Below are positions 29,324 through 36,468 of a stretch of 64,000 nucleotides of DNA, piece by piece. Position 1 is the stretch's first letter. The number at the start of each line of letters is the position of its first letter. A model generated the notes under the pieces. That model saw only the letters and a program-made list of their open reading frames with translations, was not told where the DNA came from and did not search any database. The translations under genes and the position numbers were made by a program. The stretch comes from Mediterraneibacter catenae (GTDB lineage: Bacteria; Bacillota; Clostridia; Lachnospirales; Lachnospiraceae), in the NCBI RefSeq assembly GCF_008691045.1, contig NZ_VMSO01000002.1:248001-312000 (forward strand). Reading direction: 5' to 3'.

Positions 29324-30580
29324 ATGAAAAGGATTCAGGCATTTTTGATCGGACTTATGATGAGCGTGACTTGTATCTGTGCATCTTTCCCGGTGTATGC
29401 GGATAATGAAGAAGAACCTCAGAATACAGAGAATGAAACCGAAGAAACTGTCGGAGAAGGGCAGGACCGGGCTGACGAGGATACTGCTGAAACACAGGCA
29501 GGTGTAGAAGTCACCGCACCTTCGGTCATTCTTATGGAAGCTTCTACCGGAACAGTGATTTTCGAGAAGGATGCGGATACGGCTCGTCCCCCTGCAAGTG
29601 TGACAAAAATAATGACCATGCTGCTGATCTTTGACGCACTTGCAGATGAGAGCATCGGACTGGAAGACGAAGTGACAGTCTCGGATTATGCTGCATCTAT
29701 GGGAGGTTCGCAGGTATTTTTAGAACCTGGAGAGACACAGACGGTTGATACGATGCTCAAATGCATCGCAGTAGCCAGCGCAAATGACGCTTGCGTCGCT
29801 ATGGCGGAATACATATGCGGAAACGAAGAAGAATTTGTAAACCGGATGAATGAAAGAGCGGCGGGACTCGGGATGGAAAATACTCACTTTGTAAACTGCA
29901 ACGGACTTGACGCGGAGGGACACGAGACGAGCGCCCGGGATATTGCACTTATGTCAAGGGAACTGATCAGCAAATACCCGCAGGTACACGATTATTCTAT
30001 GATATGGATGGAAAATATAACACATACAACCAATAAAGGAACTTCTGAATTCGGGCTCACCAACACAAATAAACTTGTGCGTCAGTATGAATATGCCACA
30101 GGACTTAAAACCGGGTCCACAGGCGACGCGAAATTCTGTGTCTCCGCAACTGCAGAGAAAAACGGGATCGAACTGATCGCTGTGGTAATGGCTGCTGAAA
30201 ATTCCAAAGAACGTTTTGCAGACGCGGTAAAACTCCTCAATTACGGGTACGGCAGATGTCAGCTTTATACAGATGAGAGCGAAGAGGGGATCACATCTGC
30301 CCCAGTGGAAAACGGAGTGGAAGATACTGTAGAAGTCCATCGTACAGGACCATTTTCCTATCTCGATACAAACGGAGCCAATATCAATGGAATCGAAAGG
30401 ACAGTCGAAATAAATCCCGGGATTACTGGCCCTGTCAAAAAAGGAGATATCGTGGGCGCCGTTGTGTATACGCTGGATGGAAATGAAATCGGACGCACGG
30501 ATATAGTGGCTGCAGAGGACGTGGATGAAGCCTCTTTTCTTGACTATCTGAAGGACGCCGCAGAGCAGCTCTTTGTATAG
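29324..30580 (+). CDS. Serine-type D-Ala-D-Ala carboxypeptidase (DacF-like)
   Basis: A low-molecular-mass penicillin-binding protein of 418 aa that trims pentapeptide stems of peptidoglycan. It has a signal peptide (residues 1-26, ending near FPVYA), an acidic Glu-rich stretch at 27-65, then the SxxK motif in PPASVTKIMTM, SAN in SANDACVAMAE, and KTG in GLKTGSTGD. A C-terminal beta domain follows. A paralogue lies at 33101-34354 on the other side of scpAB. Confidence 0.92.
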   Translation: MKRIQAFLIGLMMSVTCICASFPVYADNEEEPQNTENETEETVGEGQDRADEDTAETQAGVEVTAPSVILMEASTGTVIFEKDADTARPPASVTKIMTMLLIFDALADESIGLEDEVTVSDYAASMGGSQVFLEPGETQTVDTMLKCIAVASANDACVAMAEYICGNEEEFVNRMNERAAGLGMENTHFVNCNGLDAEGHETSARDIALMSRELISKYPQVHDYSMIWMENITHTTNKGTSEFGLTNTNKLVRQYEYATGLKTGSTGDAKFCVSATAEKNGIELIAVVMAAENSKERFADAVKLLNYGYGRCQLYTDESEEGITSAPVENGVEDTVEVHRTGPFSYLDTNGANINGIERTVEINPGITGPVKKGDIVGAVVYTLDGNEIGRTDIVAAEDVDEASFLDYLKDAAEQLFV

Positions 30581-31693: not shown

Positions 31694-32473
31694 ATGGGGA
31701 TTCCTGTAAAGCTGGAAGTATTTGAAGGTCCTCTCGACCTTCTGCTTCATCTGATCGACAAAAATAAAATTGACATCTACGATATACCGATCGTGGAAAT
31801 CACGAATCAATACATGGAATATATCCGGAACATGCAGCGGGAAGATCTGAACATCATGAGTGAATTCCTTGTGATGGCAGCTACGCTTCTCGACATCAAA
31901 TGCCGGATGCTCCTTCCAAAGGAAGTAAATGATGAGGGAGAGGAGGAGGACCCGCGTCAGGAACTTGTGGAGCAGCTTCTGCAGTATAAAATGTACAAGT
32001 ATATTGCCTGCGAGCTCAAAGACAGAGAGATGGATTCGGACATGGTACTCTATAAATCACCTTCTATACCTGAGGAGATTGAAAAGTATGTAGAGCCGGT
32101 CGATCTGGACAAGCTGCTCGGAGACCTCACGCTTCAGAAACTGAATTCCATCTTCAAAGATGTAATGAAGCGTCAGACCGATAAGATCGATCCTGTCAGG
32201 AGTAAATTCGGTAAGATCGAGAAAGAAGAAGTCACTCTTTCTGACAAATTTACATATATACACAGCTACATGCGAGATCATAAGACATTCAGCTTCCGCC
32301 AGCTTCTGGAAAAGCAGCACAGTAAGATGCACATCGTCGTGACCTTTCTTGCAATTCTTGAGATGATGAAACTGGGGGAGATCCGCGTGGAGCAGGAAGA
32401 GACATGCGGGGATATCATGATCGAGACTACCGGCGTAGTGATTGAAAGGACTGAAGTATCAGATGGAAATTGA
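31694..32473 (+). CDS. scpA: Segregation and condensation protein A
   Basis: Kleisin subunit of the bacterial SMC condensin. 259 aa, normal for the family. The N-terminal kleisin motif VFEGPLDLLLHLIDKNKIDIYDIPI and the middle FLVMAATLLDIKCRMLLP are clear, and the C-terminal winged helix ends in GDIMIET. The first motif is given here only in part of its length: key positions are residues 8-32. It overlaps scpB by 11 bases, and the SMC gene is not in the window. Confidence 0.95.
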   Translation: MGIPVKLEVFEGPLDLLLHLIDKNKIDIYDIPIVEITNQYMEYIRNMQREDLNIMSEFLVMAATLLDIKCRMLLPKEVNDEGEEEDPRQELVEQLLQYKMYKYIACELKDREMDSDMVLYKSPSIPEEIEKYVEPVDLDKLLGDLTLQKLNSIFKDVMKRQTDKIDPVRSKFGKIEKEEVTLSDKFTYIHSYMRDHKTFSFRQLLEKQHSKMHIVVTFLAILEMMKLGEIRVEQEETCGDIMIETTGVVIERTEVSDGN

Positions 32474-33032
32474 AAAATATCAGGCGGCGATCGAGGCAAT
32501 CCTCTTCACGATGGGCAATTCCGTGGAGATTGAAAAAATCGCGGAAGCGATCGGCCATGACGAGGAGACAACACGCAGGCTCATCCACAATATGATGGAC
32601 CGCTATGAGGAAGAAGACCGGGGAATCCGCATTATAGAACTAGAGAATTCTTACCAGTTCTGTACGAAGAAAGAGATGTATGAATATCTGATCCGTGTGG
32701 CAAAACAACCCCGCAGATATACACTGACGGATGTTCTTCTTGAAACACTCTCTATTGTGGCATACAGACAGCCAGTGACAAAGCTCGAGATCGAGAAGAT
32801 CCGCGGTGTGAAGTCTGATCATGCAGTCAATAAACTGGTCGAATACGGTCTCATCGAGGAGGCCGGGCGTCTGGATGCTCCGGGCCGGCCGATCCTGTTC
32901 GGGACTACAGAAGAGTTTTTGCGCCGCTTCAGTCTGCAGTCTCTGGACGAACTTCCTACACTCGATCAGGAACAGATCGAGCATTTTAAGGAAGAAGCTG
33001 AAGATGAAGCTCAATTAAAACTTGATATCTGA
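32463..33032 (+). CDS. scpB: Segregation and condensation protein B
   Basis: Winged-helix partner of ScpA in the SMC complex. 189 aa. Family motifs are YQAAIEAILFTMGNSVE at the start, LLETLSIVAYRQPVTK and IRGVKSDHAVNKLVEYGLI in the second winged helix, and GRPILFGTTEEFL. The ATG at 32463 overlaps the scpA stop, as is common for this pair. A strong terminator follows directly. Confidence 0.95.
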   Translation: MEIEKYQAAIEAILFTMGNSVEIEKIAEAIGHDEETTRRLIHNMMDRYEEEDRGIRIIELENSYQFCTKKEMYEYLIRVAKQPRRYTLTDVLLETLSIVAYRQPVTKLEIEKIRGVKSDHAVNKLVEYGLIEEAGRLDAPGRPILFGTTEEFLRRFSLQSLDELPTLDQEQIEHFKEEAEDEAQLKLDI

Positions 33033-33100: not shown

Positions 33101-34354
33101 ATGATGAAACGACTTGCCGGGAGATCCGGGATGTTTCTCCTTCTCCTGATTCTGGAAATAACACTTTTATTTACTGCGCCTGTCATCGTGACAGCCGAAA
33201 ATGCCGCTGAAGACACATCAGACTCAGAGATGCGTCCGTCGGAATTATACGCCCGTTATGCAGTCCTTATGGATGCCGAGACTGGGCGTATTTTATTTTC
33301 CAAAAGCGGAGACACGGAGGCTCCCATGGCGAGCACAACGAAAATCATGACCTGTATCCTTGCCCTGGAAAACGGCACTCTCACGGATAAGGTCAGCGTA
33401 AGCAGCGAGGCGGCTTCTCAGCCGGAAGTCAGTCTGGGGATGAAAGAGGGGCAGAGCTTCTATCTGAAAGATCTCCTGTATTCATTAATGCTTGAATCCC
33501 ATAACGACACCGCGGTTGCGATTGCAGAGCACATAGGCGGGAGTGTATCAGAATTCGCAAATATGATGAATACAAAAGCAGAAGAGCTGGGATGCATGTC
33601 TACATATTTCATCACCCCAAACGGGCTGGACGCGGAAGATGAGAACGGCATCCATCACACGACAGCTCAGGACCTTGCCCGTATGATGAAATACTGCATC
33701 ACAGAGTCGCCCGCAAAAGAGCAGTTTCTGGAAATAACACGGACAGGATCATATACATTTTCAGACTGTGACGGAAACGGAAGTTATGCCTGTACCAATC
33801 ACAATGCATTTCTCAAGATGATGGACGGAGCGCTCACAGGGAAGACCGGATTTACTGCAGATGCGGGATACTGTTATGTGGGTGCGCTGCAAAATGATGA
33901 CCGGACATTTATCGTGGCGCTGCTGGCATGCGGATGGCCAAACAATAAGGGATATAAATGGTCAGATACTAGAAAGCTCATGACCTACGGCCTTGAAAAT
34001 TATTTTTACCGCGATATAGGCTCCTCATACGATCCCTATAATGCAGAATTAACAGTTGACGTGGAAAATGGATATACCGGCAGTTTCCCGGACAGTAAGA
34101 ATGCAGATATAAATGTAAGTGCTCAAGGTTCTCCTGTCCGTGTCCTCCTGAAACAGAATGAAGAAATCGAAAGTGAGGTTCAACTTATAGAAAATATCTC
34201 AGCTCCGATAAAGGCGGGCGCACAGATCGGTGAAATCACTTACAGCGTAAATGGGAACCGGATCGCAGTCTATCCTCTCTGCGCCGAGGAAACAGCCCTG
34301 GAACGAACCTTCAAAATCTGTCTGGATTATGTTGTTTCCCTGGTTTTACTTTGA
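33101..34354 (+). CDS. Serine-type D-Ala-D-Ala carboxypeptidase, second copy
   Basis: A 417-aa DacF-like penicillin-binding protein: signal peptide (MFLLLLILEITLLFTAPV), SxxK in ASTTKIMTC, SHN in LESHNDTAVAIAEHIGG, KTG in GKTGFTADAGY. The SxN motif is SHN rather than the SAN of the paralogue at 29324. The extreme C-terminus (CLDYVVSLVLL) is hydrophobic and may anchor it. ATG at 33101 or 33104 falls right after a terminator hairpin, with no free ribosome binding site. Confidence 0.9.
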   Translation: MMKRLAGRSGMFLLLLILEITLLFTAPVIVTAENAAEDTSDSEMRPSELYARYAVLMDAETGRILFSKSGDTEAPMASTTKIMTCILALENGTLTDKVSVSSEAASQPEVSLGMKEGQSFYLKDLLYSLMLESHNDTAVAIAEHIGGSVSEFANMMNTKAEELGCMSTYFITPNGLDAEDENGIHHTTAQDLARMMKYCITESPAKEQFLEITRTGSYTFSDCDGNGSYACTNHNAFLKMMDGALTGKTGFTADAGYCYVGALQNDDRTFIVALLACGWPNNKGYKWSDTRKLMTYGLENYFYRDIGSSYDPYNAELTVDVENGYTGSFPDSKNADINVSAQGSPVRVLLKQNEEIESEVQLIENISAPIKAGAQIGEITYSVNGNRIAVYPLCAEETALERTFKICLDYVVSLVLL

Positions 34355-34390
34355 GATATTAAAATATATCAAGTGAAATGATTAATTTTG

Positions 34391-34456
34391 TCACTAGTAT
34401 AACCTAAATTCATATGATAGTATTAGTGAGGATAAAATAAAGCAATCAAATTGATT
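34391..34456 (+). promoter_or_regulatory. Two dyads upstream of the leuA-araC fusion gene
   Basis: TCACTAGTA (34391-34399) faces TATTAGTGA (34421-34429), and AATCAA-A-TTGATT (34444-34456) forms a second small palindrome just before the AAGGAG site at 34463-34468. Either could be an operator for the AraC-type domain encoded downstream; this is inference. Confidence 0.45.
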
Positions 34457-34479
34457 AATTATAAGGAGATGTACTAAAA

Positions 34480-36468
34480 ATGGAAAACTGGAAGAAATAC
34501 GAGAAGACTTATTTTATGCCGCCGGAGCCGTGCTACGACTGGGTGAAGAAAGATGCCATCGAAAAAGCTCCGATCTGGTGCAGTGTTGACTTAAGAGACG
34601 GTAATCAGGCTCTGATCGAACCCATGAGTCTTGATGAAAAGCTGGAATTCTTCCAGATGCTGGTAGATATCGGCTTCAAAGTGATCGAAGTCGGTTTTCC
34701 GGCTGCTTCCGAGACAGAGTATCAGTTTCTGCGCACATTGATCGAGCAGAACATGATCCCGGATGATGTGACGATCCAGGTACTGACACAGGCCAGAGAG
34801 CATATCATCAAAAGGACATTTGAAGCTGTAAAAGGCGCGCCCCATGCGATCATCCATGTATATAATTCAACGTCTGTAGCACAGAGAGAGCAGGTATTTA
34901 AAAAAGATAAAGAAGAGATTAAGAAAATCGCCACTGACGGTGCAGAGCTCCTGAAAAAACTGGCTGATGAGACAAAAGGAAATTTCACCTTCGAATACAG
35001 TCCGGAAAGCTTCCAGGGGACAGAAGTTGATTATGCTCTTGAAGTATGTAATGCCGTTCTCGATATCTGGCAGCCGACGAAGGATAATAAGGCGATCATC
35101 AATCTGCCCACGACAGTAGAAAACGCCATGCCCCATGTCTTTGCAAGCCAGGTGGAATACTTTAACAAACATCTCCGCTACAGGGAAAACGTGATCCTCT
35201 CCCTGCATCCGCACAATGACCGCGGATCCGGCGTCAGCGATGCAGAGCTCGGCATCCTTGCAGGAGCAGACCGTATAGAGGGAACACTGTTCGGCAACGG
35301 CGAGCGTACAGGAAATGTAGATATCATCACACTTGCCATGAACATGTTCTCCCAGGGGGTTGATCCGGGACTCGACTTTTCCAATATGAGCGACATCTGT
35401 GAAGTATATGAGCGTGTGACAAGAATGAATGTATCCCCCCGCCAGCCTTACGCAGGAGAGCTTGTATTCACAGCATTTTCGGGATCTCACCAGGACGCCA
35501 TCGCAAAAGGAATGGCATGGAGAGAAGAACACGACCTGTACACATGGACCGTGCCGTATCTTCCGATCGATCCGCAGGATGTGGGCAGGAGATACGATTC
35601 AGACGTTATCCGTATCAACAGCCAGTCAGGAAAAGGCGGCGTAAATTATATCCTGAAGCAGAGCTTCGGAATCAGCCTGCCGGAGAAGATGCGCGAAGAA
35701 GTGGGATATCTCGTCAAAGACGTATCCGACAAGGCTCACAAAGAGCTTACTCCGGATCTGATATACCGCATTTTCGAGGACAATTATATCAATACAAAAC
35801 CTGTATTTACAGTGGACGAATGCCATTTCAAACAGGAGGACGGTATCATTGCTGAAGCAACGATCCATCACAATAATAACAATTTCAAGATCACCGGAGT
35901 CGGAAACGGACGTCTCGATGCCGTCAGCAATGCGATCAAACATTATTTTGACGTCAGCTATGAACTGTCATTCTACGAGGAACACTCCCTGACAAAAGGT
36001 TCATCCTCAAGAGCAGTTGCGTACGTTGGAGTAGTCTGCAACAAGAAGCGTTACTGGGGTGTTGGAATCGACGCCGATATTATCAAGGCTTCCATTGAAG
36101 CACTTGTAGTTGCGGTAAATAAGATCAAAGAAATCGCAGAATCCCAGGCAGGAAAAGACGAGAGACTTCTCGAGATCACCAACTACATCTACGCAAATTA
36201 TAAAGATGTCACACTGGATGATCTTGCAGAAAAATTCTTCCTGTCCAAGCCGTACCTCTCAAAATATATCAAAGAGAAATCCGGCATGACATTCGGGGAT
36301 ATCCTGAAAAAGATCCGCATGAAAAAAGCCCGCGCAATGCTCAAAGGCAGCAGCGCCACAGTAGAAAGCATCGCAGAGTCTGTGGGATATCAGAATGTAG
36401 AACACTTCAACAGAGTGTTTAAGAAAATGTATAATATCACACCGGTACAGTACCGTAACCGGAAGTAA
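34480..36468 (+). CDS. leuA: 2-isopropylmalate synthase fused to a C-terminal AraC-type DNA-binding domain
   Basis: Residues 1-550 are a type 2 alpha-isopropylmalate synthase, the first committed enzyme of leucine synthesis (acetyl-CoA plus 2-ketoisovalerate). Motifs are [25 protein letters not shown] (metal HxH) and [10 protein letters not shown], with the C-terminal LeuA-type regulatory region around 430-550. Residues 560-662 are a complete AraC helix-turn-helix pair: [20 protein letters not shown] and [20 protein letters not shown], ending in [10 protein letters not shown]. The frame is continuous, and a normal LeuA would end near residue 550. No other leucine genes are in view. Confidence 0.93.

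Follow-up and report, generated by a model that had tools for sequence, protein, structure and literature searches.

The leuA gene of Mediterraneibacter catenae, encoding 2-isopropylmalate synthase, is an intact type-2 leuA joined within one open reading frame to a complete AraC-type DNA-binding domain (positions 34480-36468 of the window, i.e., of the whole 64,000-nucleotide stretch of DNA analysed here). A conserved operator accompanies the fusion from genus to genus and stands at a fixed distance from the promoter, and the occurrence of the fusion is inverse to that of leucine T-boxes. Taken together, these comparisons lead us to consider it probable, with good confidence, that LeuA-AraC autoregulates leuA, presumably through AraC-like activation tuned by leucine, and has thereby taken the place of a leucine T-box present in the ancestor.

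The fusion gene and its integrity across relatives

The gene and its parts are as follows:

34480..36468, + strand: leuA-araC fusion gene, 662 aa (open frame with Pfam and NCBIfam domains)
34570..35400, + strand: HMGL-like catalytic domain, aa 31-307 (Pfam E 3.1e-72)
35458..35658, + strand: IPMS_D2 post-catalytic domain, aa 327-393 (Pfam E 2.5e-33; low-confidence region of the model)
35743..36126, + strand: LeuA_dimer regulatory domain of the leucine-sensing type, aa 422-549 (Pfam E 2.9e-25)
36127..36159, + strand: variable linker from the regulatory to the AraC domain, aa 550-560 (low conservation, model)
36163..36462, + strand: AraC-type DNA-binding domain with two helix-turn-helices (HTHs), aa 562-661 (HTH_18, HTH_AraC; model helices)
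36247..36282, + strand: HTH1 recognition helix, aa 590-601 (model helix; conserved across 68 fused proteins)
36397..36432, + strand: HTH2 recognition helix, aa 640-651 (model helix; conserved across 68 fused proteins)

The initial annotation had described a full-length LeuA that reads without a stop into a complete two-HTH AraC domain, and this description is borne out by the open reading frame, Pfam and the structural model alike. The frame runs from an ATG at 34480 to a stop ending at 36468 and contains no internal stops. Against NF002991, the NCBIfam model of the type-2 synthase, the protein scores 811.6 bits (cut-off 455), while in its C-terminal part Pfam recognises HTH_18 at aa 582-661 (E 1.5e-21; 76.9 bits, cut-off 33.6) and HTH_AraC at aa 624-660 (47.7 bits, cut-off 26.6). 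The catalytic motifs LRDGNQ, HxHND and GNGERTGN are invariant in 33 aligned members, and conservation analysis likewise found G475-N476-G477 of the LeuA_dimer domain to be invariant. The predicted structure is a monomer, in which a coupling of the regulatory and AraC domains is not visible, and it is moderate as a whole (mean pLDDT 77, pTM 0.52, residues 321-384 mostly below 50). Nevertheless, it places seven helices within residues 561-660 at pLDDT 79-89 per 10-residue block, so that the AraC part is complete; helix 590-601 is what we take, from its position in the fold, to be the HTH1 recognition helix. A Foldseek search with the whole model ranked M. tuberculosis LeuA first and returned no AraC protein among the best 50 matches, and is thus uninformative on the AraC part.

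LeuA-AraC shares its catalytic, D2 and leucine-regulatory domains with type-2 LeuA (NF002991 / PRK03739), including M. tuberculosis LeuA (PDB 1SR9, 3FIG), which is its best sequence and fold match in PDB. However, nothing follows the regulatory domain in either the NF002991 model or the M. tuberculosis enzyme, whereas LeuA-AraC continues beyond that point (about its residue 549) into the AraC domain and has a conserved operator. The genome encodes two HMGL-family proteins. Since the second one, on contig 21, falls far under every curated isopropylmalate synthase cut-off and has no LeuA_dimer domain, and since a whole-protein search at E <= 1e-60 gave a single match there, no LeuA other than the fusion was identified in this genome. 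This second HMGL gene (locus L224, 2004-3392), which we take to resemble those of Re-citrate synthases, clusters with genes named by reading as isocitrate dehydrogenase-like, serA, serC, ilvB, ilvD and leuB. The neighbours of leuA-araC are D-Ala-D-Ala carboxypeptidase and M24 peptidase genes, with no leucine genes among them; scpA and scpB are adjacent to each other (31694-33032), near two D-Ala-D-Ala carboxypeptidase genes (29324-30580 and 33101-34354).

A search for the taxonomic spread of this architecture, as the initial annotation had recommended, returned LeuA matches at threshold in 231 of 250 Lachnospiraceae genomes, taken one per genus, and a full-length fused LeuA in at least 60 of the 250 among the matches listed. 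Outside the family, three fusions (G314, G430 and G432) were found among the matches listed for 393 genomes across the class, and G314 and G430 each also hold a second, unfused LeuA. A record titled Muribaculaceae (L059) carries a Lachnospiraceae-type fusion and is perhaps a mislabelled metagenome bin. Of 80 loci retrieved from contigs of named genomes, 78 have an uninterrupted fusion, the exceptions being L056, with a frame change at the linker, and L080, which has no AraC domain. Such uniformity indicates that the fusion is not an assembly accident. Split forms occur in two genera (G050 and G063; loci L176 and L179), in which the AraC domain follows in another frame directly after the LeuA stop and the operator is kept; the junction in G063 has a run of A, and either an assembly error or a real frame change may lie behind it. 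Frame changes at the linker thus affect three fetched loci (L056, L176 and L179), two of them beside homopolymer runs. They are what might suggest that the two domains are really separate genes or divided by a stop, the artefact of which the initial annotation had warned, but, given the counts of intact loci and genera above, we find such an artefact scarcely credible.

The AraC domain is also constrained where it would meet DNA. Its recognition helices deviate less from the consensus than the rest of the domain in all 68 fused proteins (mean 0.135 vs 0.301). In the same 68 proteins, the HTH2 residues E641, H642, F643, R645 and F647 reach a conservation of 0.99-1.0. The two HTH regions average 0.79 and 0.78, compared with 0.53 for the linker.

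A fusion-linked candidate operator and its promoter

Upstream of leuA-araC, we found the following elements:

34356..34395, + strand: operator site 1 (core 34360-34385), abutting the -35 region (PWM 46.1; 0 mismatches to the pattern)
34415..34423, + strand: extended -10 promoter element TGATAGTAT (TGnTAnnnT; logo)
34429..34468, + strand: operator site 2 (core 34433-34458), located in the leader beside the ribosome-binding site and 73 bp downstream of site 1 (PWM 23.0; 1 mismatch)
34463..34469, + strand: ribosome-binding site AAGGAGA (sequence reading)

The leaders of the named loci share a conserved element, approximately TTAAAAWAnATCAAnnnnAnTGATTAA, followed by a CACT-like end. From fused loci we derived a 26-bp pattern and, with 40 genera, a PWM. 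At up to 3 mismatches, the 3.18-Mb genome of M. catenae contains three pattern matches, two of which start 120 and 47 bp before leuA; among the three, sites 1 and 2 match best. In the window, the best non-operator site on the + strand has a PWM score of 1.6, and the highest score on the - strand (6.8) comes from site 2 in reverse orientation. Across the 250 genomes, 32 of the 33 pattern matches with 0-1 mismatch lie upstream of a fused leuA (matched by hand).

Counted per genus (up to 4 mismatches within 1 kb), the operator is present before 53 of 60 fused genes, both split genes and none of 28 near-relative unfused genes, the latter being relatives fetched from the top of the match list and hence a subset of the unfused genomes (Fisher p 4e-17 for operator vs fusion, uncorrected for descent). 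Nine further unfused leuA genes lack it as well, and seven of the 60 fused genera have no site by pattern. By PWM, 63 of 68 fused genes score above the best of 37 unfused ones and five score at or below it, 40 of the 68 having trained the PWM. Moreover, the three fusions in other families (L227-L229) carry the operator with 3, 3 and 1 mismatches, whereas the second, unfused leuA copies lack it in all five examined genomes that also hold a fusion; one such copy (L285) has a T-box core at -511. These two controls argue that the operator is tied to the fusion rather than to leuA or to the host.

A logo over the 40 per-genus loci with the 58-bp promoter spacing described below resolves four conserved blocks (TAAAA, ATCAA, TGATTAA and TCACT), about 8-12 bp apart, an arrangement that would fit an AraC-type dimer, with two HTHs per monomer, reading successive major grooves. 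The symmetry of the operator is ambiguous (inverted r 0.65 vs direct r 0.58). Overall, the AraC domain likely binds this candidate operator. The negative correlation between operator score and protein divergence was stronger for the AraC domain outside the recognition helices (rho -0.53) than for these helices themselves (rho -0.29), and specific covariation between helix and site was thus not found.

Two dyads ahead of the gene had been put forward in the initial annotation as a possible operator. That at 34444-34456 turned out to be the centre of conserved site 2, whereas that at 34391-34429 (CACT...AGTG) is not generally conserved and was rejected: by a simple test, its arms recur in 25 of 75 named loci and in merely 3 of 53 per-genus loci, this genome included. 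The main element, site 1, was absent from the coordinates proposed at that time. In two loci (L055 and L057), the operator pair is separated from leuA by a gene that reads as alpha/beta-hydrolase-like, roughly 1 kb ahead of leuA; this gene may thus have joined the operon.

The position of site 1 relative to the promoter is fixed. A site with no more than 4 mismatches is present in 128 of 138 fused loci, and the 10 without include L053, whose sequence extends only 47 bp upstream of the gene. In 109 of the 128, the distance from the beginning of the site-1 core to the hexamer of TGnTAnnnT is exactly 58 bp; it is 57 bp in nine, 56 bp in three and another value in two, and the hexamer was not found in five. 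The 58-bp spacing also holds in 40 of the 53 loci of the per-genus set. At the -35 hexamer (17-bp spacer), no position is well conserved except T at the first place. Still, 14 of 40 promoters match TTGACA at four or more of six positions (one of them at five), against 5.2 +/- 2.1 in shuffles, so that a weak -35 persists in some promoters and its complete absence finds no support.

Site 2 is less widespread. In the lineage of this genome it lies 73 bp, i.e., about seven helical turns, from site 1. Named loci with a second site (up to 4 mismatches) have a spacing of 73 bp in 46 cases, 74 bp in three and another value in seven. In the per-genus set, site 2 stands above shuffles (fraction <=0.02) in just 14 of 53 genera; the spacing is 73-75 bp in 10 of these, the other four having 63, 65 or 70 bp. 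A looping or repressing function of site 2, which we infer with no better than an even chance, would thus be a lineage feature.

Leucine T-boxes and candidate targets beyond leuA

In most of the sampled near unfused relatives, leuA is preceded by a leucine T-box leader (Rfam RF00230), an RNA device sensing tRNA charging. A T-box core (up to 2 mismatches within 1 kb, per genus) was found before 26 of 28 unfused vs 8 of 60 fused genes, and one of these eight, in L101 at -951, is probably due to chance. Rfam confirmed the T-box in all 14 tested loci with such a leader (seven fused loci with both devices and seven unfused ones) and detected it in none of 13 tested fused-only loci. Under the T-box specifier-reading rule, the specifier could be read by pattern in 29 of 35 scanned leaders and was a CTN leucine codon in all 29; L164 has a second, non-leucine specifier match close to the core. 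In the 64-kb window, Rfam found no T-box at the gathering score, and the 15 T-box matches of this genome at E <= 0.001 all lie outside the window. The protein switch thus appears to replace the RNA device, or coexists with it in seven sampled fused genera, where the operator lies upstream of the T-box. A Clostridiales-1 RNA (RF01699) was observed between T-box and leuA in L178 (2458-2616), L190 (2822-2985) and, below the gathering score, L105 (1042-1158).

On the LeuA tree, in which 47 of 105 inner branches are poorly supported, fused genes stand among T-box-bearing relatives and require seven changes of state. A single gain with some losses, and perhaps transfers, would be compatible with this topology. 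Among three well-supported independent pairs (six on all branches), operator and fusion go together in an average of 2.7, and no pair runs in the opposite direction; with three pairs (median sign-test p 0.25), the association of operator and fusion is not significant after phylogeny is taken into account. Loss of AraC vs presence of the T-box offers still fewer contrasts, with about 1.3 of three pairs pointing in the expected direction. It is tempting to suppose that LeuA-AraC, an enzyme of a committed biosynthetic step, itself activates its gene in AraC style and is turned off by leucine, that some lineages add a second site for looping, and that this one-protein device displaced the ancestral leucine T-box across a large part of Lachnospiraceae via an intermediate that kept both; to this scenario in its entirety we give slightly less than an even chance.

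The initial annotation had also raised a motif shared with other leu/ilv genes. In this genome, neither pattern nor PWM revealed an operator site at leuCD or leuB-ilvD-ilvB, and no T-box was found there either. Elsewhere, 49 of the 60 fused genomes have a leuC match, and the 30 leuC loci fetched from them contain no site (best PWM 2.6). Pattern matches away from leuA (up to 2 mismatches) number 10 in the 60 fused genomes vs 16 in 188 genomes without fusion or split by hand count, a rate about twice as high on small numbers; a reversed-pattern control gave 19 matches in 15 of the 250 genomes. In G160, a site with a PWM score of 29.6 (L248, 1528-1567) precedes an acetolactate synthase (ilvB-type) gene. 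A T-box (98.8 bits) forms the leader of this gene, and its specifier place reads as GTA (valine). In G169, a site (PWM 19.9) precedes a small-subunit gene of the LeuD/DmdB family, above the LeuD/DmdB subfamily cut-off and below the LeuD equivalog cut-off, followed by a large-subunit gene. In G132, a stretch of L244 (1463-1731) has a 1-mismatch site upstream of a T-box-like leader that scores 58.8 bits, under the gathering score, and of a pyruvate/2-ketoisovalerate oxidoreductase gamma gene. This site was not counted as a target, because its PWM score of 11.1 is within the background, chance sites of 10-12 occurring in the same stretches. For the remaining seven of the 10 matches, no branched-chain gene was recognised. 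With no sites at leuCD or leuB-ilvD-ilvB, and with candidates elsewhere in single genera (G160 and G169), the switch looks mainly local, and control looks limited to leuA in this genome.

Proposed mode of action and biological meaning

The tie between operator and fusion, the fixed geometry and the well-kept recognition helices strongly support a one-protein synthase-regulator acting on its own promoter, and thereby lend comparative weight to the proposal of the initial annotation that the synthase also controls its own transcription. In the mechanism that we propose, the catalytic part would make 2-isopropylmalate, while the two C-terminal AraC domains of a LeuA dimer, with four HTHs between them, would bind the ~40-bp site 1 upstream of the promoter. 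From there, they would contact RNA polymerase at an extended -10 promoter with a mostly poor -35, most likely activating transcription much as AraC does from araI1-I2. Leucine at the dimer interface of the regulatory domain, which immediately precedes the AraC domains, would shift these domains or inactivate them, leading to less leuA transcription as well as less enzyme activity. Where site 2 is present, as in the lineage of this genome, it would contribute further repression or looping.

In M. tuberculosis LeuA, leucine occupies a symmetrical pair of pockets where the regulatory domains of the dimer meet, together with an open-closed loop (PMC11057210). As the AraC domain adjoins the regulatory domain via a short linker, leucine binding could move it. 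The regulatory domain, moreover, is more conserved in fused than in unfused proteins at mid-range divergence, as judged from non-independent pairs binned by catalytic identity (0.56 vs 0.46 at 72-76%, 0.61 vs 0.48 at 76-80% and 0.65 vs 0.53 at 80-84%); outside this range, the values are 0.50 vs 0.46 at 68-72%, 0.69 each at 84-88% and 0.81 vs 0.78 at 88-92%. A leucine signal is plausible because this domain of the leucine type is kept, with its extra conservation, and because the device replaced is a leucine T-box. We therefore regard leucine as the most likely effector, and a fairly probable one. A substrate, the product 2-isopropylmalate or CoA could instead act via the catalytic part, which is intact like the regulatory domain, and in yeast it is 2-isopropylmalate that signals to Leu3. 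Yet the adjacency of the regulatory domain to the AraC domain, its extra conservation at mid-range divergence and the leucine specificity of the replaced T-box speak against such an effector, and we deem it unlikely.

As for the sign of regulation, LeuA-AraC on sites 1 and 2 around the promoter might block RNA polymerase with leucine as a co-repressor. PutA and BirA, both autoregulated enzyme-regulators, repress; site 2 of this lineage falls at the very beginning of the transcribed region, site 1 adjoins the -35, and some promoters keep four of six -35 positions. But the widely conserved site is the upstream one, at its constant distance from an extended -10 with a mostly poor -35, which is the layout of AraC-type activators, and site 2 stands above shuffles in only 14 of 53 genera. 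Such an autorepressor is thus a doubtful, though substantial, alternative, and activation by LeuA-AraC seems somewhat more likely. We hold it improbable that a different regulator binds the operator while the AraC domain does something else or nothing. Firmicutes do possess other regulators of branched-chain amino-acid genes, such as CodY, but the site follows the AraC-bearing gene across genera and into the fusions of other families, bypassing second unfused copies, and it is nearly unique per genome, unlike the motif of a global regulator.

LeuA-AraC, read as an autoregulatory activator, resembles AraC/XylS activators in its two-HTH domain and in the layout of araI1-I2, where a ~40-bp site abuts a poor -35. 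Those activators, however, have a small sugar-binding partner domain, in the place of which LeuA-AraC has a complete biosynthetic enzyme. It shares with the "trigger enzymes" PutA, BirA and NadR the union of a metabolic enzyme and a pathway-controlling DNA-binding domain in one protein; in PutA and NadR, the enzyme is joined to a DNA-binding domain that controls pathway genes. For BirA, the combination of enzyme and DNA-binding domain is described in two published accounts (PMC4016012, PMC6391492). LeuA-AraC differs from these three in its enzyme, its DNA-binding fold and its likely activator geometry. Judging from titles and the beginnings of abstracts, with most subscription journals outside the scope, we found no published description of a LeuA-AraC fusion. 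The principle of an autoregulatory DNA-binding enzyme is thus known; what is new is another enzyme with another fold, and a visible exchange for an RNA switch.

Overall, the fused enzyme, which catalyses the first step of leucine synthesis, very probably controls its own gene in many gut bacteria, while related bacteria use an RNA leucine switch. The predicted operator is open to direct testing. The genera with the RNA switch alone, with both devices and with the protein switch alone form a natural series for the exchange of one regulatory device for another. If our reading is true, end-product control of activity and of transcription would be united in a single allosteric protein across no fewer than 60 of the 250 sampled genera of Lachnospiraceae.
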